Virus record (IMG/VR): IMGVR_UViG_3300027749_002876
Span: 62,001 to 126,000 of that record
Origin: a virus
Length of the DNA stretch: 64,000 nt
Direction: 5' to 3' (one strand)
Shown here: positions 3,985-60,920 of the stretch, in pieces
Layout of the letters: each line of letters starts with the position of its first letter
Position numbering within the stretch: position 1 is the stretch's first letter
Position numbers and translations under genes: made by a program
The notes under the pieces: model-generated
Seen by the model: only the letters and a program-made list of their open reading frames with translations
Told to the model about the DNA's origin: nothing
Database searches by the model: none

Positions 3985-4476
3985 ATGTTCAGAACCACTA
4001 CTATCGCCAATCTTATGCTTGAGGAATTGCCACCAATTACCTATCAAAAACGGCTTTATTATAGGACCGATCATGGTGAGGTAGTAGTATTATACAAGAT
4101 GTTAAATAAATTAATTTTCAACAATAAATTAATAATGCCCGAGATTGAAGTAATGCCTCGTTGTAGAAAGTATTGGGGAATGTGTTTTGCAACCATAAAC
4201 ATGCCCACCAAGACTGAGAGTTTTTGCAAGATCAGGTTGATGGATAAATGGTATTGCAAACAATGGCTCATCACAGTGTTAGCACATGAAATGTGTCATC
4301 AATATCAATGGGATGTACAAGGGGTGCAAAGACTTAATGAGGGTAAACAACCTATTATGAGTCATGGCCCTAGTTTCTTTGTGTTTAGAGATAAGTTAGC
4401 AAAGCATGGTATTTCACTAAAAAGCGCACATAGTCGTAGACGCTGGTTCAAACATCAAAACTTATTTAAGTGTTAA
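3985..4476 (+). CDS. SprT-like zinc metallopeptidase
   Basis: The protein (163 aa from this start) contains the zincin motif HEMCHQ with aromatic residues after it and a later GHGPSF-like SHGPSFF block typical of SprT-like proteins. This family includes metalloproteases that act on DNA-protein crosslinks. The frame could begin at 3967, but that would place the late promoter box inside the coding sequence; 3982 and 3985 are the best starts, with no ribosome-binding site, suggesting a leaderless mRNA. The gene is followed at 30 nt by another late-type gene. Confidence 0.8.
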   Translation: MFRTTTIANLMLEELPPITYQKRLYYRTDHGEVVVLYKMLNKLIFNNKLIMPEIEVMPRCRKYWGMCFATINMPTKTESFCKIRLMDKWYCKQWLITVLAHEMCHQYQWDVQGVQRLNEGKQPIMSHGPSFFVFRDKLAKHGISLKSAHSRRRWFKHQNLFKC

Positions 4477-5999: not shown

Positions 6000-6587
6000 A
6001 TGAGTCTAGTCCCAATGGTAATCGAGCAAACCGCTAAAGGTGAGCGTAGTTACGATATATACAGCCGTCTATTGCGCGACCGTGTTATTTTGCTAGAAGG
6101 CGAAGTACATGATCAAATGGCCAATCTTATTGTTGCCCAACTCTTGTTCTTAGAGTCTGAAGGTGACAAAGATATATCAATGTACATCAATAGTCCCGGT
6201 GGTTCAGTTACAGCAGGTATGGCAATCTATGATTGTATGCAGTTCATTGCTCCCGACATTCACACTATTGTTATGGGTCAAGCATGTTCAATGGGTAGCT
6301 TACTTGCACAAGCAGGTGCTAAAGATAAACGATTTATGTTGCCAAACGCACGACATATGATTCATCAACCTTCTGGTGGCGCCCGTGGTCAAGCAACTGA
6401 TATGTTGATTCAAGTGGAAGAAATGCTGGCAATGAAAAAGAACCTCACACAAATCTATGTTAACCACAACAGTGCAGGCAAGACATTCGAACAACTAACT
6501 GCTGATATGGAACGTGATAACTTTATGTCTGCACAACAAGCATTAGCATATGGTCTAATCGACAAAATCATCGATAAACGCAGTTAA
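6000..6587 (+). CDS. clpP: ATP-dependent Clp protease proteolytic subunit ClpP
   Basis: A 195-aa ClpP with an intact catalytic triad: S97 in GQACSMGS, H122 in [10 protein letters not shown] and D173 in MERDNFMSA. The INSPGG block at 64-68 is also present. ClpP forms a double-heptamer chamber that degrades polypeptides delivered by ClpX or ClpA. With phage clpX and clpS in the same window, the phage may assemble its own or a hybrid protease. The gene has a sigma70-like promoter and a strong ribosome-binding site, so it may be expressed apart from the late genes. Confidence 0.97.
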
Positions 6588-12196: not shown

Positions 12197-12469
12197 ATGC
12201 GTACAAAAACTATCATTGACGGCTTCAATAACTCACAAAAATTCCGTGTAATTTTTAAGGGTGACGGAAGCGAAAACGATATCGGTATGTACTTGACTAT
12301 CAAGCAAATGTCCGAGCAATTTGCTACAGTTAACGCCCGCACACTTTGCTGGGATGCTATGCTTAAATTGTCTTATTTGCGTTATGAAGCCAAGCGCAAA
12401 AATGAGACAGTTCCGACAGGTCTCGGTGACACATTTAGGGGCAAACAAGTCCAAGTTGACTTGGTATAA
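12197..12469 (+). CDS. hypothetical early protein
   Basis: A 90-aa basic soluble protein of unknown family with one early promoter and an AAAGGA ribosome-binding site. The next promoter begins 5 nt after its stop. Confidence 0.72.
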   Translation: MRTKTIIDGFNNSQKFRVIFKGDGSENDIGMYLTIKQMSEQFATVNARTLCWDAMLKLSYLRYEAKRKNETVPTGLGDTFRGKQVQVDLV

Positions 12470-12473
12470 AAGG

Positions 12474-12502
12474 TTGACAATAAATCACTTTGGGTATATA
12501 AT
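12474..12502 (+). promoter_or_regulatory. early promoter 6
   Basis: TTGACA-N17-TATAAT. This promoter and its leader are identical to those at 12820 for about 57 nt. Confidence 0.93.
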
Positions 12503-12529
12503 AGAATCTTAAACAGTAAAGAAACGGAG
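12474..12529 (+). repeat. direct repeat, copy 1 (promoter plus leader)
   Basis: An identical stretch recurs at 12820-12875, flanking the gene at 12535. Homologous recombination between the two would delete or amplify that gene. Confidence 0.9.
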
Positions 12530-12534
12530 TTAAT

Positions 12535-12810
12535 ATGAAAAAATCACTAATTGCAACATTGTTATTAGTATCAGGAATTGCTCATGCTGGAATTGAGCAG
12601 CCGCTTCAACAAGCAATTAACCAAGTAGGATCATCATGTGATAAGGTAACTCAAGTTTTTCAGAGTAGCGGGACATATAATATGTACAGTGTTGCATGTT
12701 CCGGTGGACAAACATATATGGTTCTAGTTAAACCTGAAACTAATTCAGCTAAGGTTATGACATGCCGAGAAATGGCAATGATTGGTACAAAGTGTTTTGT
12801 CAAATTGTAA
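12535..12810 (+). CDS. small secreted protein with four cysteines
   Basis: A 91-aa protein with a typical Sec signal peptide: Lys-Lys start, hydrophobic core and AHA cleavage site near residue 18. The mature part of about 73 residues has four Cys (SSC, VAC, TCR, KCF), which could form two disulfides in the periplasm. An early-expressed exported protein might alter the envelope or block superinfection, but that is only a guess. The gene is flanked by identical promoter repeats. Confidence 0.75.
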   Translation: MKKSLIATLLLVSGIAHAGIEQPLQQAINQVGSSCDKVTQVFQSSGTYNMYSVACSGGQTYMVLVKPETNSAKVMTCREMAMIGTKCFVKL

Positions 12811-12819
12811 TTTAAAAGG

Positions 12820-12848
12820 TTGACAATAAATCACTTTGGGTATATAAT
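12820..12848 (+). promoter_or_regulatory. early promoter 7
   Basis: TTGACA-N17-TATAAT, identical in core and leader to promoter 6. Confidence 0.93.
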
Positions 12849-12875
12849 AGAATCTTAAACAGTAAAGAAACGGAA
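12820..12875 (+). repeat. direct repeat, copy 2 (promoter plus leader)
   Basis: Second identical copy of the stretch at 12474-12529. Confidence 0.9.
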
Positions 12876-12881
12876 CACAAA

Positions 12882-13364
12882 ATGGCAACTCGCTCAACAA
12901 TCGCTCTCGAATTCGCTGATGGTACTATTGGTCAAGTATATTGTCACTGGGATGGTTACTTGGCTCACAACGGTAAAATGTTGCAGGAGTATTATTCTAA
13001 CCCCTTTGTTTTGCGTGACTTGATTGACCTCGGTGGGTTGTCTGGCTTGCGCCCAACAATCGGTACAAAACATCCCTTCAGTATGTACGAAGCAAACATG
13101 ACACAGGATGAATACGCTAACCTGTATCGTGACATGTGTACATTCTATGGCCGTGATCGTGGCGAAGGCGAATCTGATGCAAATTACTTCAAGGACTTTG
13201 CAGACTTCAAAGACAATGGTCAAGCTGAAGAATACGATTACATCCTGCGTAACGTGAATGGCGTTGCTACTTGGTTCGTATCCGATCATGGTGGAGACTA
13301 CATGTTGTTGACTGAGGCATTTGCTAAAGAAGCCGAAGCAGAAAAAGAAGAATTGCCCTTATAA
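12882..13364 (+). CDS. conserved phage protein of unknown function
   Basis: A 160-aa acidic protein starting MATRSTIALEFADGTI and containing QVYCHWDGYLAHNG and IGTKHPF blocks. I recognise this as a family common in tailed phages, without a known function. The C-terminal half is Asp/Glu-rich. It is followed after 9 nt by the SWIM-domain gene and probably leads a run of overlapping genes to 14351. Confidence 0.82.
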   Translation: MATRSTIALEFADGTIGQVYCHWDGYLAHNGKMLQEYYSNPFVLRDLIDLGGLSGLRPTIGTKHPFSMYEANMTQDEYANLYRDMCTFYGRDRGEGESDANYFKDFADFKDNGQAEEYDYILRNVNGVATWFVSDHGGDYMLLTEAFAKEAEAEKEELPL

Positions 13365-23630: not shown

Positions 23631-24905
23631 ATGAAATTTAATTTAAAAAACTTCTTATCTAGTCCGTGGACTATTTTAGGATCAATTATACTTGGAGTAC
23701 TGGCAGGAATATATGCTCCTGCACAAAGTATGAACTTTGAAAGTGTTGGAGGAATTTACATTAGCTTGCTTAAAGTTGTGGTAATACCTTTCTTACTTGC
23801 AACTATTTTGGTTGGTGTTATCAGCCTACTACAAAAAGAAGGCAGTGCCGCAATGATACGCAAAATTATCATTGGCTTTGTTGGCAGTATGTTCTTGGCC
23901 GCAGTTATTGGTGTTGGTACTGTTGCACTGACCGGCAGCGAAATGACTCCTGCAAAACAAGCACAACTTGGTGCTATTGTCAACGATAAAGAATCTGGTA
24001 GTGATCTTAACATAACACTAAAAGAACCAATGCCTGCCGCACCGCACGTTGACCCAATGCAAATGGCACAGAAGTTTATTCCAGAAAATATTTTTAATAC
24101 ACTAGCCGCTGGCGAGAGTTTAAAGATTGTTATCTTTTGTTTAATCTTTGGTATTGCATTAGGTAACTTAAAAACTACTGGTCAAGAAATGCTAGTGGAT
24201 ATATTAAAGAGCGTACAACAGGCCAGTATCAGTATTTTTAAATTCTTAAACTACTTTCTACCGTTTGCACTATTGGCAATGATTAGCAGCCAAGTTGGTA
24301 AGGTTGGAGTTGGTATTTTCTTGACCATGGTTGAGTTTATCATGCAACAGGCCATTGGTGGATTGCTTGTTGTTATTGCTGGTACTATTGTTATTTGGCA
24401 ACGTTCAGGACTAAGCTTAATGACTGTTATTAAAGAAACTAAGGAAACATTAATTGTGGCTGTTAGTTCACGCAGTAGTTTAGCATGTATTCCTTATGCA
24501 CAAGAAGCACTGCACAAATTACATTTTGATAGAACTGGTGTAGAATTAACCGTGCCATTAAGTTTTACAGTTAACCGTATTGGTAGTATTGTTTATTACG
24601 CAATTGCCACAGTATTTATTGCCAACATCTACGGTGCACCTATGGGAGTAACTGGTTTGCTGGTTGTATTGTTTGGTAGTATTTTAGCTGGATTAGCAAG
24701 TGCTGGTACAACAGGTATCTTAACAGTTGCTACAGTAGCAGTCGTTTGTGATTTATTAAAACTACCAAGTGAAGCGGTATTAGTATTATTAATTGCAGTT
24801 GATCCGTTAATGGACATGATTCGCACAGCAAGTCATGTACACGGCAATGTGGCAGTAACAGCATTTGTCTGCGACAAAGAGATAACAGATAATGGACAAA
24901 CTTAA
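23631..24905 (+). CDS. dicarboxylate/amino-acid:cation symporter (DAACS)
   Basis: A 424-aa polytopic inner-membrane protein with DAACS (GltP/DctA) marks: the Ser-rich re-entrant loop VSSRSSLACIP, the NRIGS motif, SAGTTGI, and the C-terminal DPLMDMIRTASHVHGNVAVT block, where substrate and Na+/H+ are bound. Substrates of the family are glutamate, aspartate or C4-dicarboxylates. An insertion near residues 105-140 separates early membrane helices. It lies 9 nt after the receptor gene and overlaps the next by 14 nt. In the phage it could raise intake of N and C during infection. Confidence 0.93.
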   Translation: MKFNLKNFLSSPWTILGSIILGVLAGIYAPAQSMNFESVGGIYISLLKVVVIPFLLATILVGVISLLQKEGSAAMIRKIIIGFVGSMFLAAVIGVGTVALTGSEMTPAKQAQLGAIVNDKESGSDLNITLKEPMPAAPHVDPMQMAQKFIPENIFNTLAAGESLKIVIFCLIFGIALGNLKTTGQEMLVDILKSVQQASISIFKFLNYFLPFALLAMISSQVGKVGVGIFLTMVEFIMQQAIGGLLVVIAGTIVIWQRSGLSLMTVIKETKETLIVAVSSRSSLACIPYAQEALHKLHFDRTGVELTVPLSFTVNRIGSIVYYAIATVFIANIYGAPMGVTGLLVVLFGSILAGLASAGTTGILTVATVAVVCDLLKLPSEAVLVLLIAVDPLMDMIRTASHVHGNVAVTAFVCDKEITDNGQT

Positions 24906-45510: not shown

Positions 45511-46392
45511 TTATTTCTTCGCTACTGATTTTACAATGTTTCTAATTTCTTCTGTTGTATAAAACATAGGGCCCGATGACATTGATTCTAATCTGTTCAA
45601 TACATCAATATCCTTGTTGCATTCGTATATTGAATTTACTAACATACTTCTTGCTTCTTTACTAGCAGAAGGGTTTACACTTAACAGAATACCCAAAGGC
45701 ATTTTACTCAATTTTTTACTAAAAGTTTGTACGCTTTCGTGATTGTACTTGTTTGCTGTTCGTTTGTCAAACGTACTGGCAATGATTTTGACCTTTCCTG
45801 ATTCAATCATTGGCTTCGCTCCAATGTATGTGTCTAGTAGGATATCCAAACTACCATTCACTGTATCAGTTAACATGTTGACATTGTTTTTATAAGGTAT
45901 AACTTGATACGGGATGTTCAACTCAGTAAACAATGTCTCAATCATAAAGTTACCTAACACTGTGCTTGAACCTGCATTGATTGGTCTAGTCTTTGATAGT
46001 GTTCTCAACTCATCAATTGTATCAGTCTTGCCTGTCTTACCTACAAACACCATTGCAATTTGATTCATGTATACAGTTGGATTAATATCTTCTAGTAAGT
46101 CAATATTAGGAAAGCTACCCAACATGTTCAGCCCAAAATTTCCCACTAACAAGTTAGTAACCTTGTCAGTATCTTTTGCTTGCTGTAATGTGTTGATTGC
46201 TATTAAACCATTTGCACCCGGTTTGAATTCTTTTAATACATTAATCTTTTGACGTTCTAAACAACCAGTATAGGTATCCACAACTATATCAGATCCTGAT
46301 CCGGGTCCAGAACTTAGTATGAATTTATACGTGTGTATTTGAGCGTGTGCAATACCAAATAATAGTAAAAATAATGCTAATAGTTTTTTCAT
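45511..46392 (-). CDS. TctC/Bug-family periplasmic receptor
   Basis: A 293-aa exported protein with signal peptide (cleavage after AHA, residue 18), FILSSGPGSGSDIVVD at the mature N-terminus, and INAGSSTVLGNFM and NGSLDILLDTYIGA later. Bug receptors bind carboxylates for tripartite tricarboxylate transporters and are abundant in Burkholderiales. No TctA/TctB permease gene is visible. The ATG follows an ATAAATA box after 5 nt. Confidence 0.85.
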   Translation of the reverse strand: MKKLLALFLLLFGIAHAQIHTYKFILSSGPGSGSDIVVDTYTGCLERQKINVLKEFKPGANGLIAINTLQQAKDTDKVTNLLVGNFGLNMLGSFPNIDLLEDINPTVYMNQIAMVFVGKTGKTDTIDELRTLSKTRPINAGSSTVLGNFMIETLFTELNIPYQVIPYKNNVNMLTDTVNGSLDILLDTYIGAKPMIESGKVKIIASTFDKRTANKYNHESVQTFSKKLSKMPLGILLSVNPSASKEARSMLVNSIYECNKDIDVLNRLESMSSGPMFYTTEEIRNIVKSVAKK

Positions 46393-49229: not shown

Positions 49230-50207
49230 TTAATCCTTAGATAGGTCAATCTTACTTAGCACAGGCAAGAATGCCGCGCGTAAATCGTCCATATGTTTTT
49301 TCAATCCTGCAGGCGTAAGTTCATCTTCTGCATAGAATATAACATTAGCATCAATGTATTCCTTGTATTCAGTGCTACGGACTGCTTTACTAAACTGTTG
49401 TTGATACCATGCAACAATATCTTTATCTGTGCCAGGTGGTAATTCAATACTCCATGCGGCATACACGTTAATGCCCGGGGCTACTGTGTTTAGTAAGGGA
49501 ACATCAGGAAACTGAGGCATCTTACGTGTGCCAGTAAACCCAATTGGTTTAACTTTGCCACCTTCAATCAATGGTTTAGCAACTGCAATTGGCATGATAC
49601 CAAACTCTGTGCCAGTTTTACCATCATAACTTGCTACGCTAGTAACTGCCGGTAACGGTCCGTTGAATTTAATACTTTTGACAGCATCTTTGTTTCCATT
49701 ACCCTTGTCTAGTAGATATTCAAATGCTGTTCTATGTGCTCCGCCACCAATAGCAACGTTAATGTTTCTACCTGATTGAATGTATTTGATAAACTCTTGC
49801 GGGGTGTTGATGCCACTCTTTACACTAGCAACTAATACTAGAGGGCTCTTTCCCATTGTCAATACGTCAATGAAGCTGTCGTAGTTATACTTCTTAATAT
49901 TCTTTTCCCAGATATCATTCGTTACATATGAACTCATGTGACTTGGTAAGTTGATAGTGTGTCCATCATTAGGAGCTTCTAAAAACTTGTTGTTGGCAAT
50001 GACTGAATCAGCACCAGGAATATTCTGAACTACATATGTGAACTTTGGATTAGATTTCTGTACAATCTCTGCTAGTTTACGAAATGCCATTTCGTTACCA
50101 GCACCGGGAGTGTTACCAATATAAACTTGTACTGGTTTGGTTGGTTCCCATGCAAATGATAACATAGGTAATACTGCTAATGTAAGTGTTGCTAAAATTT
50201 TTTTCAT
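49230..50207 (-). CDS. TctC/Bug-family periplasmic receptor
   Basis: A 325-aa exported protein with signal peptide (cleavage after SFA, residue 19), VQVYIGNTPGAGNEMAFRKLAE, GADSVIANNKFLEAPNDGHT, IAVAKPLIEGGKVKPIGFTG and PGTDKDIVAWYQQQF, typical of the family at normal length. It is more canonical than the receptor at 45511. No permease is visible. An AGGAGG ribosome-binding site precedes it. Confidence 0.92.
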   Translation of the reverse strand: MKKILATLTLAVLPMLSFAWEPTKPVQVYIGNTPGAGNEMAFRKLAEIVQKSNPKFTYVVQNIPGADSVIANNKFLEAPNDGHTINLPSHMSSYVTNDIWEKNIKKYNYDSFIDVLTMGKSPLVLVASVKSGINTPQEFIKYIQSGRNINVAIGGGAHRTAFEYLLDKGNGNKDAVKSIKFNGPLPAVTSVASYDGKTGTEFGIMPIAVAKPLIEGGKVKPIGFTGTRKMPQFPDVPLLNTVAPGINVYAAWSIELPPGTDKDIVAWYQQQFSKAVRSTEYKEYIDANVIFYAEDELTPAGLKKHMDDLRAAFLPVLSKIDLSKD

Positions 50208-58320: not shown

Positions 58321-58860
58321 CTATTTTTTCCACCACCAAACCAATCGTTCAACTGTTGGAAAATTTTTATTGATATCTAAAACAATTGGTTTACAAACTG
58401 ATAAGTTCAACTTATTAGTCCATTCATAAAATGTTTTATAACTTAATCTATGTTTAGTACCAAAATTAGATATATGATCTTCATTATGACCTATATAATC
58501 TAAAAATGGTTGCATTCTTACTACAATATATCCACCGGGCTTGATCCAACTTACAATTTTTTCTACATCATAGAATTGATTTTCTACGGGTTTATATTGT
58601 ATGGAACCTAAACAAAGTGCGATATCTATTGATTCTTTTTCAAAGACGACATCATTTACTGAAGCCTGCATATCACTATTTGGATATGGATCAGCGTCAA
58701 AGCCAATCAAATTATGTATTTTGTCCTTGAAAAGATTTTCCCCACATCCCACATCAATTACTTTTTGCGGAAATAAGGAATTTACCTCTTCAATTAAATT
58801 GTAACCTGAATATGTGAATCCACGCATTCTAGTATCATTGTAAATATAAGCTTCATTCAT
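58321..58860 (-). CDS. class I SAM-dependent methyltransferase
   Basis: A 179-aa protein with VIDVGCGENLFKDKI (motif I), LIGFDADPYPNSDM (motif II), CLGSIQYKP and WIKPGGYIVVRMQPF. It is a shorter paralog of the methyltransferase at 50287. The ATG is 5 nt after an ATAAATA box. Substrate unknown. Confidence 0.85.
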   Translation of the reverse strand: MNEAYIYNDTRMRGFTYSGYNLIEEVNSLFPQKVIDVGCGENLFKDKIHNLIGFDADPYPNSDMQASVNDVVFEKESIDIALCLGSIQYKPVENQFYDVEKIVSWIKPGGYIVVRMQPFLDYIGHNEDHISNFGTKHRLSYKTFYEWTNKLNLSVCKPIVLDINKNFPTVERLVWWWKK

Positions 58861-58865
58861 GAAGA

Positions 58866-58872
58866 TATTTAT
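58866..58872 (-). promoter_or_regulatory. late-type promoter box
   Basis: GATAAATA on the minus strand, 5 nt before ATG 58860, just downstream of tRNA-Asp. Confidence 0.7.
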
Positions 58873-58875
58873 CGA

Positions 58876-58950
58876 TGGCGACTCGTGGGAGAATCGAACT
58901 CCCGTAATCGGATAGACAATCCGAAGTAATGACCATTATACGAACGAGCC
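58876..58950 (-). tRNA. tRNA-Asp (GTC)
   Basis: Cloverleaf, acceptor GGCTCGT/ACGAGTC, anticodon loop TTGTCTA, encoded CCA. Confidence 0.96.
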
Positions 58951-59034
58951 TAAATTAGTAGTAGTTTCTATATCACCCATTGAAACTAATAAACATTGAG
59001 AAAGAGCTTGCGTAGCAAGATTTCTATTTGTTCT

Positions 59035-59118
59035 TGGTGGAGACGGTTGGAGTTGAACCAACAGTGCCGAAGCGGAAGATTTACAGTCTCCTGGGGTTAC
59101 CAATTTTCCTACATCTCC
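59035..59118 (-). tRNA. tRNA-Tyr (GTA)
   Basis: Class II tRNA of 84 nt, acceptor GGAGATG/CGTCTCC, anticodon loop CTGTAAA, encoded CCA. Confidence 0.96.
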
Positions 59119-59326
59119 AAATTAGGATAAGCTACTTGTTTCCACACAAGCCCTTAATTGAGCGGTTACTCTGTCCATCTCTTTTATTCTATATGTCTGT
59201 GTGCAGAGAGATACTGCCTATCAGAGTCTGCCGGGGTAGTTTCCATCCCTGCTTTTACGGTTTTCTGCCACCGGATCTCTATCGCTAATCAAACGCTACT
59301 TTGACGAAAGTAGTAACGGGATTCTT
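59119..59326 (-). ncRNA. structured non-coding RNA candidate, 3' part
   Basis: About 208 nt without coding potential between tRNA-Tyr and tRNA-Glu. On the minus strand it has a 7-bp hairpin CTACTTT-CGTC-AAAGTAG and further stems GGG/CCC (around GATGGAAACTA) and CTTGT/ACAAG. It may continue the structured RNA that starts near 59841, with tRNA-Glu embedded. Confidence 0.5.
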
Positions 59327-59401
59327 TGGAAGAGCTACGGGGAATCGAACCCCGCTTGCCTGGATGAAAACCAGATGTCCTAACCGATAGACGATAGCTC
59401 C
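59327..59401 (-). tRNA. tRNA-Glu (TTC)
   Basis: Cloverleaf, acceptor GGAGCTA/TAGCTCT (G1-U72), anticodon loop TTTTCAT, encoded CCA. It directly abuts a long hairpin at 59404 and lies inside the large non-coding span. Confidence 0.95.
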
Positions 59402-59841
59402 ATGTTATTAGTTTTGCTGACGCACTGTTTGCTATGCTCAACGGAATTGCCAGCTGGACGTACCGTTTATATACATAGTTACTCAGGGTTGACGTTTCCC
59501 CCATGGCTTACATCAGCAAAACTAATAACACTCTATATGAAAACACATTATGGGAACTACATTCGTCTGTCCAGGACCGTCTCCTGTACCCCGGCTTGTA
59601 CACCGGGAACTCTGAACTTCGTCATTACTGCCTAACTGCCCGTCACGTTCATAACTTTCGTTATCATACGCTTCATGATGTATGTCTTGGCGTGTATCCG
59701 TCGATACCCTTATAACCTTCGTACACCCTAACGGATCAGGTAACCCTTAATATGTTTACATATAGAGCCCTGAACTTAACAGGGATATATGAATTCTAAA
59801 TTTTAAAGAACTCTTGCAACTACTCTATCGTTTGTTGCTAT
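59402..59841 (-). ncRNA. large structured non-coding RNA candidate, 5' part
   Basis: About 440 nt between a consensus promoter and tRNA-Glu with no credible gene. Minus-strand structure includes CCCTG/CAGGG, CATAC/GTATG, ATAAC-GAAA-GTTAT (GNRA loop), CCCGG/CCGGG and a perfect 17-bp stem (59404-59420 with 59513-59529). The size, complexity and place in a phage tRNA island recall the giant ornate phage RNAs GOLLD and ROOL, but I cannot confirm family membership. Confidence 0.55.
59404..59529. repeat. 17-bp perfect inverted repeat
   Basis: Arms GTTATTAGTTTTGCTGA (59404-59420) and its exact complement (59513-59529) enclose 92 nt. Confidence 0.92.
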
Positions 59842-59847
59842 GTGTCT

Positions 59848-59876
59848 ATTATAACACCTTTACCATTTATTGTCAA
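59848..59876 (-). promoter_or_regulatory. early-type promoter for structured RNA and tRNAs
   Basis: TTGACA-N17-TATAAT with spacer ATAAAT; start expected near 59841. Confidence 0.93.
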
Positions 59877-59929
59877 ATTCTTTTTTGTGTCTCTGTGTCC
59901 GAGAACTTGTTCAATCAATCTAAGTATCT

Positions 59930-59958
59930 ATTATAGCACCAACTTGATTTATTGTCAA
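59930..59958 (-). promoter_or_regulatory. early-type promoter, tandem copy
   Basis: TTGACA-N17-TATAAT with spacer ATAAATC, 82 nt upstream of the previous promoter. Confidence 0.93.
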
Positions 59959-59993
59959 ACTTTGTGTTGTTGTATTTTTACAACACCTGTTAT

Positions 59994-60068
59994 TGGTCCG
60001 GCGTAAGGGAATCGAACCCCTATAAACACTTTAGAAGAATGTTGTCCTATCCGTTGAACGAACGCCAG
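59994..60068 (-). tRNA. tRNA-Arg (TCT)
   Basis: Cloverleaf, acceptor CTGGCGT/ACGCCGG, anticodon loop CTTCTAA, encoded CCA. Confidence 0.95.
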
Positions 60069-60089
60069 ATATATTTCTTACTTGTCTCT

Positions 60090-60118
60090 ATTATAGAGGA
60101 TTGTTGATTTGTTGTCAA
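60090..60118 (-). promoter_or_regulatory. early-type promoter, tRNA-Arg
   Basis: TTGACA-N17-TATAAT with spacer ACAAATC. Confidence 0.92.
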
Positions 60119-60139
60119 GTTTGACAACAACTATTTGAA

Positions 60140-60215
60140 TGGCTCCTCAAGATGGGATCGAACCACCGACATTCTGATTAACAGTCAGACGCAACTACCG
60201 CTGTGCTATTGAGGA
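60140..60215 (-). tRNA. tRNA-Asn (GTT)
   Basis: Cloverleaf, acceptor TCCTCAA/TTGAGGA, anticodon loop CTGTTAA, encoded CCA. Confidence 0.97.
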
Positions 60216-60222
60216 ATATTTT

Positions 60223-60298
60223 TGGTGCCCACACCATGATTCGAACACGGCACCTACGCATTACAAGTGCGTTGCTCTACCAAATGAGCTATGTGGGC
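60223..60298 (-). tRNA. tRNA-Thr (TGT)
   Basis: Cloverleaf, acceptor GCCCACA/TGTGGGC, anticodon loop CTTGTAA, encoded CCA. Confidence 0.97.
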
Positions 60299-60329
60299 TT
60301 GTGTCTTACGACATGTTTATTTAACAGCT

Positions 60330-60358
60330 ATTGTATCATAGGAAAACTTTTATGTCAA
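60330..60358 (-). promoter_or_regulatory. sigma70-like promoter inside a hairpin
   Basis: TTGACA-N17-TACAAT, between TATCATAGG and CCTATGATA arms (9-bp stem) that overlap the end of the HNH gene; terminator and promoter may be combined. Confidence 0.7.
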
Positions 60359-60359
60359 C

Positions 60360-60920
60360 CTATGATAGCAATATTCTGCTGTGTTTGGGAACACCTGCAA
60401 GCAAGTATTCCATTTGGTCAGCAAGAATTGTTCTATGTTGTAGAATCATATTTTCGTAGTGGTTTGGGATATACGGAGTGTATAATAATTCCATACGGGA
60501 ATCTTTCAATGTCTTATGACCTTTTTTGCTGTTACAATCTTTACATGCCGTAACAACGTTCATCCAGGTGTTTTCGCCACCTTTACTTTTTGGATGAATA
60601 TGGTCTCTACTTAACGCATGGTAGTTAGCAAAGTATTCTCCGCAATATGCACAAACGTGTCTGTCACGACCAAACAATGTTTTATTAGTTAGTGCCACAC
60701 ATGAATGTTTATATGGATTGAATCCATGACCTTTGATAGCAATAATGCTATTAGCTTCCAAGTAACTTAATGTACCGTCATTTTGCATACCACCACGATA
60801 TTTAGCCACAATATTGCCCATACTCCATGCAATGGCATCTTTTGCTTTATAGGTAATTGCGTCATCATTTGATATCCATTGCCGGGGAACTCCCGAGATA
60901 TCTAGTGCTAGAACAGCCAT
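60360..60920 (-). CDS. HNH endonuclease
   Basis: From ATG 60920 (AGGAG ribosome-binding site) the product is 186 aa. It contains CAYCGEYF, LSRDHIHPKSKGGENTWMNVV and ACKDCNSKKGHKTL, the Cys-flanked HNH motif with two zinc knuckles. Free-standing HNH nucleases of this type are common in large phages as homing or mobile genes, and it sits alone among tRNAs as homing genes often do. Confidence 0.92.
   Translation of the reverse strand: MAVLALDISGVPRQWISNDDAITYKAKDAIAWSMGNIVAKYRGGMQNDGTLSYLEANSIIAIKGHGFNPYKHSCVALTNKTLFGRDRHVCAYCGEYFANYHALSRDHIHPKSKGGENTWMNVVTACKDCNSKKGHKTLKDSRMELLYTPYIPNHYENMILQHRTILADQMEYLLAGVPKHSRILLS

Follow-up and report, generated by a model that had tools for sequence, protein, structure and literature searches.

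The window (the whole stretch of viral DNA analyzed here, 64 kb) contained 27 tRNAs, and the region at 59841-59119 was found inside a tRNA island. Judged by comparison with related loci, this region is a cassette of a promoter, a boxB-like hairpin, a boxA, the RNAs alpha and beta, tRNA-Glu, which sits between beta and delta, and the RNA delta, and is not one monolithic RNA (Table 1). The distance from ~59841 to tRNA-Glu was 440 nt, and that from tRNA-Glu to tRNA-Tyr at 59118 was 208 nt. The two promoters were ~82 nt apart; only the proximal promoter, which was kept in 12 relatives, directly preceded boxB-boxA. Elsewhere in the window, Pfam identified ClpX (530-1732) and ClpP (6000-6587), as well as a dicarboxylate symporter (SDF; 23631-24905) and two tripartite tricarboxylate transporter receptors (TctC; 45511-46392 and 49230-50207).

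Table 1. Features of the cassette and its flanks, in window coordinates
Feature	Position	Strand	Basis or remark
Distal promoter, TTGACA-17-TATAAT	59930..59958	minus	12/12 match
Proximal promoter, TTGACA-17-TATAAT, extended TG	59848..59876	minus	12/12 match; expected start ~59841
boxB-like hairpin, GCAAC...GUUGC	59816..59838	minus	relatives and spacer hairpin comparison
Predicted boxA, GTTCTTTAAAA	59801..59811	minus	fits published consensus GYTCTTTAANA (PMC5725501)
Short hairpin, CCCTG...CAGGG, in boxA/alpha interval	59768..59784	minus	fold
RNA alpha, ~235 nt; closing helix CTCTATATGTAAACATATTA / TAATGTGTTTTCATATAGAG encloses conserved core GGTTACCT...CCGTTAGG...GTAATGA	59532..59767	minus	36-sequence alignment
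RNA beta, ~130 nt; closing helix of at least 17 bp, inner helices, apical loop with palindrome	59403..59531	minus	55-sequence alignment; covariance model R1
Palindrome CCAGCTGG in beta apical loop, candidate kissing loop	59450..59457	minus	
tRNA-Glu (UUC)	59327..59401	minus	53.5 bits
RNA delta, ~205 nt; core TGGACAGNGTAACNRCTCA	59119..59326	minus	16 close and 42 diverse homologs
tRNA-Tyr (GUA), next gene downstream	59035..59118	minus	

An earlier note, made from the sequence alone, had described the region as a structured, non-coding span behind two tandem consensus promoters. Both promoters matched the consensus in full, and the 723 nt folded at -224.6 kcal/mol (z -4.4 in comparison with shuffles), in agreement with the claim of strong structure. 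For the 440 nt upstream of tRNA-Glu the folding z was -5.7, with 0 shuffles as good. The GNRA-capped hairpin (AUAAC-GAAA-GUUAU) and the perfect stem beside tRNA-Glu (GUUAUUAGUUUUGCUGA/UCAGCAAAACUAAUAAC) were also recovered. The longest open stretch was 83 codons versus a shuffle mean of 81, and the frame differed among relatives, which bore out the absence of a coding signal; a protein-coding reading of 59841-59119 was rejected because its open stretches were no longer than those in shuffles. The comparison with related phages that the note had proposed revealed covariation among the homologs and no reading frame that they share, so that its picture of a conserved, highly structured, non-coding phage RNA region inside a tRNA island was upheld.

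The record from which the window was taken has 524,565 bases, and it contained a second copy of the cassette, 88% identical overall. The leader part and the modules of copies A and B were ~94% identical, while the tRNA was strongly diverged. In this whole record (G000), the tRNA island and ClpX occurred twice, in inverted orientation, with 81% amino acid identity between the two ClpX sequences, and the ends of the record were 72-79% similar in inverted orientation. Of 20 whole records, the 19 other than G000 each contained no more than one beta. G000 probably combines two related huge phages that were joined in assembly; alternatively, it is a giant inverted duplication. Because of the doubled ClpX, the inverted similar ends and the single beta elsewhere, we do not claim that the two copies are paralogs in one genome.

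The predicted boxB-boxA leader

The occurrence of boxA was analyzed in the collected loci, in which 103 distinct copies lay on the tRNA-sense strand versus 2 on the antisense strand (metagenomic contigs are unevenly independent, and tallies and p-values of this kind overstate independence). A promoter was present within 110 nt upstream of 80/103 sense copies, and a tRNA within 900 nt downstream of 99/103. Ten of 15 whole phage records contained the promoter-boxA unit, at 13 sites in total, and the reversed control pattern was absent. The spacer between promoter and boxA tended to form a hairpin, with a mean best stem of 5.96 in comparison with 4.59 after shuffling (74 spacers). Its stem varied and its GAAA loop was often kept (GUUGA-GAAA-UCAAC, GCUGA-GAAA-UCAGC, and others).

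The leader was also compared with that of an E. coli rrn operon, which showed the same order of promoter, hairpin, and boxA. As in an rrn-type leader, a consensus boxA followed soon after the promoter on the transcribed strand, with a hairpin between them. The boxA of rrn operons is both required and sufficient for recruitment of antitermination factors, and active 30S subunits depend critically on a leader-trailer helix of >17 bp (PMC10250234). The likeness extends to a co-transcribed tRNA and to untranslated structured RNA closed by helices of at least 17 bp. However, the cassette is on a phage and its leader precedes new RNAs and tRNAs, not rRNA. The boxA reading draws on consensus, position, and strand, and the parallel suggests that the phage may use the host machinery for rRNA transcription and folding to make long untranslated RNAs. 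In several loci boxA was located directly before single tRNA genes, at 16-29 nt (L014:16826, L019:6023, L026:12456, and others), and thus the leader is not tied to large RNAs. A search of the openly accessible literature found no description of alpha, beta, or delta, nor of a boxA on phage tRNA transcripts.

Alpha, beta, and delta as exchangeable RNA modules

Covariation showed the structures of alpha, beta, and delta. Because the sequences were gathered by patterns, beta helix 4 as a whole and some of the conserved 5' sides cannot vary, and positions within the search patterns were left out of the covariation support. For alpha (36 sequences, 50% mean identity), compensatory change was observed in 30/42 pairs, with 280 double-change cells versus 95 after shuffling and 33-65 in slid controls. 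For beta (55 distinct sequences), 94.6% of cells were paired, and 160 double-change cells were counted versus 39 after shuffling and 14-41 in slid controls; model R1 gave 156 bits on the window copy, which was itself among its training rows. For delta (42 diverse sequences), compensatory change was observed in 20/30 pairs, with 189 double-change cells versus a shuffled mean of 73 and maximum of 90. In the helices, G-U exceeded A-C in alpha (108 versus 24) and in beta (47 versus 24), which argues for RNA of the tRNA-sense strand. The alpha sequence GGUUACCU is complementary to the conserved 3' region of 16S rRNA to which the 1492R primer corresponds. Pairing with 16S rRNA was set aside, since a C variant breaks the complementarity and the bases sit in conserved helices.

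All 4227 Rfam models (Rfam 15) were searched against the window, and 58500-60600 was searched with permissive filters up to E=10. In 58500-60600 only tRNAs and chance matches were obtained, and neither alpha, beta, nor delta matched Rfam 15. The three are new RNA families, here in an arrangement that is itself new. Cultured phages were matched only by the tRNA; the tRNA-free parts of the cassette gave chance matches, and beta gave none. The exact beta pattern was not found in the GTDB representatives of cellular genomes.

The comparison set comprised hundreds of IMG/VR loci. The neighboring HNH gene, used as a query, returned 80 loci, mostly tRNA islands of related phages, and many of these carried parts of the cassette RNA at the equivalent place before tRNA-Glu. 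The leaders in relatives had a constant start (promoter, hairpin, boxA), beyond which interchangeable folded pieces extended as far as the first tRNA. Each piece was closed by a long helix; in the window the pieces are alpha and beta, with delta after tRNA-Glu. A further exchangeable module, gamma, with arms ATTATTAAGTGTTATC / GATAATACTTAATAAT, was located between leader and tRNA in L023 (~12800-12935), L070 (~12380-12515), L085 (~4100-4275), and L059, and additional modules were present in L026, L033, L078, and L080.

IMG/VR was also scanned with patterns for each module. The beta scan returned ~100 stretches, a few of them false; for alpha and delta, the counts are those of the matches listed, and the totals are larger. 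The comparison of copies showed that each module can occur without the others, in a different order, or next to a different tRNA. Beta was found beside Glu, Tyr, Lys, Asp, Gln, and Met tRNAs, and it usually abutted the following tRNA. Among the matches listed, alpha also occurred as a gene of its own, with its own promoter and upstream of protein genes, and delta lay beside many tRNAs or, likewise as a separate gene, behind its own promoter. Alpha copies at a distance from any downstream tRNA were seen in L201, L202, L265, L274, L286, L296, L304, L308, and L309, mostly behind promoter-like sequence and before a protein gene, and some of these tRNA-distant copies were closed by ACAGTTAG/CTAACTGT stems.

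The earlier note had proposed one large RNA of ~720 nt with an embedded tRNA, and here the relatives showed separable modules instead. A monolithic RNA in which the tRNA is an inner domain of a single particle, like GOLLD with a linker tRNA, would agree with the order alpha-beta-tRNA-Glu-delta kept in about a dozen relatives, with the tRNA inside real GOLLD in relatives, and with the few long-range pairs that the MFE fold contains. However, the modules were found without each other, reordered, and beside other tRNAs, the tRNA differed strongly between copies A and B, in which the modules were ~94% identical, and the consensus helices stayed within modules. This free recombination speaks against a single 720-nt particle, and we consider such a particle improbable.

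Another explanation is that the modules are merely cis-acting leader or spacer structures, which aid tRNA maturation and have no later role. As this would predict, beta is almost always immediately adjacent to the next tRNA, and the copies of all modules lie mostly in tRNA islands. However, alpha and delta are also found on their own, behind separate promoters and away from tRNAs, and neither conserved loops nor a switching palindrome would be expected in spacers; this explanation is likewise unlikely. The long inverted repeats, the palindrome, and the shifting of beta between tRNA neighbors could also point to hairpin elements of mobile DNA that lie next to tRNA genes and end in inverted repeats, being either MITE-like or recombination sites. 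However, among the matches listed, every copy with a tRNA within 600 nt was on the strand of the nearest one (alpha 59/59, beta 57/57, delta 129/129; 245/245 in total), and the excess of G-U over A-C and the limit of one beta per record, outside the probably composite G000, also argue against mobile DNA, which is very unlikely.

The palindromic loop of beta and the giant phage RNAs

The search pattern placed no constraint on the apical loop of beta, where any letters were allowed. A palindrome of at least 6 nt was present in 19/19 distinct loops (3.9 expected), and one of at least 8 nt in 17/19 (0.9 expected). On a tree built without the loop columns, the loop switched state at least 22 times. 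The central bases of the loop, which are adjacent in sequence, also obeyed the palindrome rule; this innermost "pair" consists of neighboring bases and can therefore form only between molecules. Three out-of-sample copies were palindromic without selection (CGGCCG, CACGTG, and GTAGCTAC), and the copies with CGGCCG and CACGTG are distant forms of beta that were found by the covariance model, whose E-values are rough, at 74-76 bits. For OLE L9.3 and GOLLD L21a, homomeric kissing loops have been argued from palindromes that switch to other palindromes (Kretsch et al. 2025, PMC12286853). The beta loop displays the same switching together with covariation of adjacent bases, and therefore beta likely dimerizes, though the palindrome might serve in DNA.

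The earlier note had suggested that the region belongs to GOLLD or ROOL or forms a new class, and had proposed a search with the corresponding Rfam models. In that search neither model matched in 58500-60600 up to E=10, so that membership was not supported, while a likeness in mode was found in the switching palindromic loop of beta. GOLLD (RF02032; 416-position covariance model, cut-off of at least 150 bits) was absent from the window and from the whole 524-kb record, and the ROOL and OLE models gave no match in the window. As a positive control, GOLLD was detected at 201-206 bits in 3/9 related records. These are phages of 352-367 kb, with true GOLLD at L029:13991-14457 and in the records that hold L053 and L062; in L029 a tRNA lies inside the span of the match. 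In L071 a boxA leader (15066) was followed by >500 nt, an apparent GOLLD 5' sequence, and then tRNA-Ile. The tRNA islands of related phages hold both GOLLD and cassette modules.

A member or divergent variant of GOLLD or ROOL would fit a freshwater-type phage, the tRNA island, the size, and the tRNA inside. However, nothing matched up to E=10 with permissive filters, and related phages carry true GOLLD apart from the cassette modules; membership was rejected on the missing match and the positive control, and its probability is minimal. At the level of mode, the resemblance to giant phage RNAs is genuine. Like the cassette, GOLLD is a phage RNA of tRNA islands; it occurs in the same islands in related phages, and some copies enclose a tRNA. 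It is a homo-oligomer with a palindrome-switching kissing loop (L21a), and beta shares the sequence signature of such a loop. It differs in lacking any sequence or structure match and in having one conserved 3' domain, whereas the cassette consists of several small modules that recur singly. ROOL is also a large ornate phage RNA near tRNA islands and is homo-oligomeric (PMC12286853), but the cassette has no Rfam match to it. The symmetric kissing loop of the OLE dimer switches between palindromic tetranucleotides as the beta loop does, but OLE has another structure, other hosts (bacterial chromosomes), and no Rfam match here.

Proposed production and role of the cassette RNAs

We infer, with a probability of roughly 0.7, that the phage borrows the host machinery of rRNA antitermination for the synthesis, co-folding, and processing of a polycistronic RNA/tRNA precursor, and that beta dimerizes. 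The region 59841-59119 would be the 5' part of a polycistronic non-coding transcript, which would start at the strong sigma-70 promoter, with the boxB-like hairpin and boxA made at once. By analogy with bacterial rrn operons, boxA would recruit NusB/S10 and the antitermination complex, which would most likely carry host RNA polymerase through the long untranslated RNA despite Rho and aid its folding. Alpha, beta, tRNA-Glu, and delta would follow in the transcript, each folding by itself, with alpha and beta closed by helices of ~17-24 bp that resemble those formed by leader and trailer around rRNAs. Separate RNAs would be released by cuts at the tRNA ends, made by RNase P and the enzymes of tRNA 3' processing, and probably by RNase III cuts in the long helices, the sites of both being guesses. 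Beta molecules would then pair through the palindromic apical loop into homodimers or larger homo-oligomers. The sequence comparisons show the structures, the modularity, the strand, and the loop signature; Nus recruitment, processing, and dimerization are inferences.

Three covariation-supported families that are absent from Rfam 15 join the very small class of large phage RNAs of tRNA islands, and RNAs of this class are shown to be modular and exchangeable. Beta gains a directly testable contact, and its ~130 nt suit quick structural work. A concrete hypothesis for the production of such RNAs is rRNA-type antitermination leaders on phage tRNA transcripts. More tentatively, and with less than even odds, huge freshwater phages may mimic an rRNA operon, in which the host antitermination and folding complex, taken over through boxB-boxA, would serve to make exchangeable self-assembling RNAs (alpha, beta, delta, GOLLD, and others) and tRNAs, and so to form RNA-only particles in infection.
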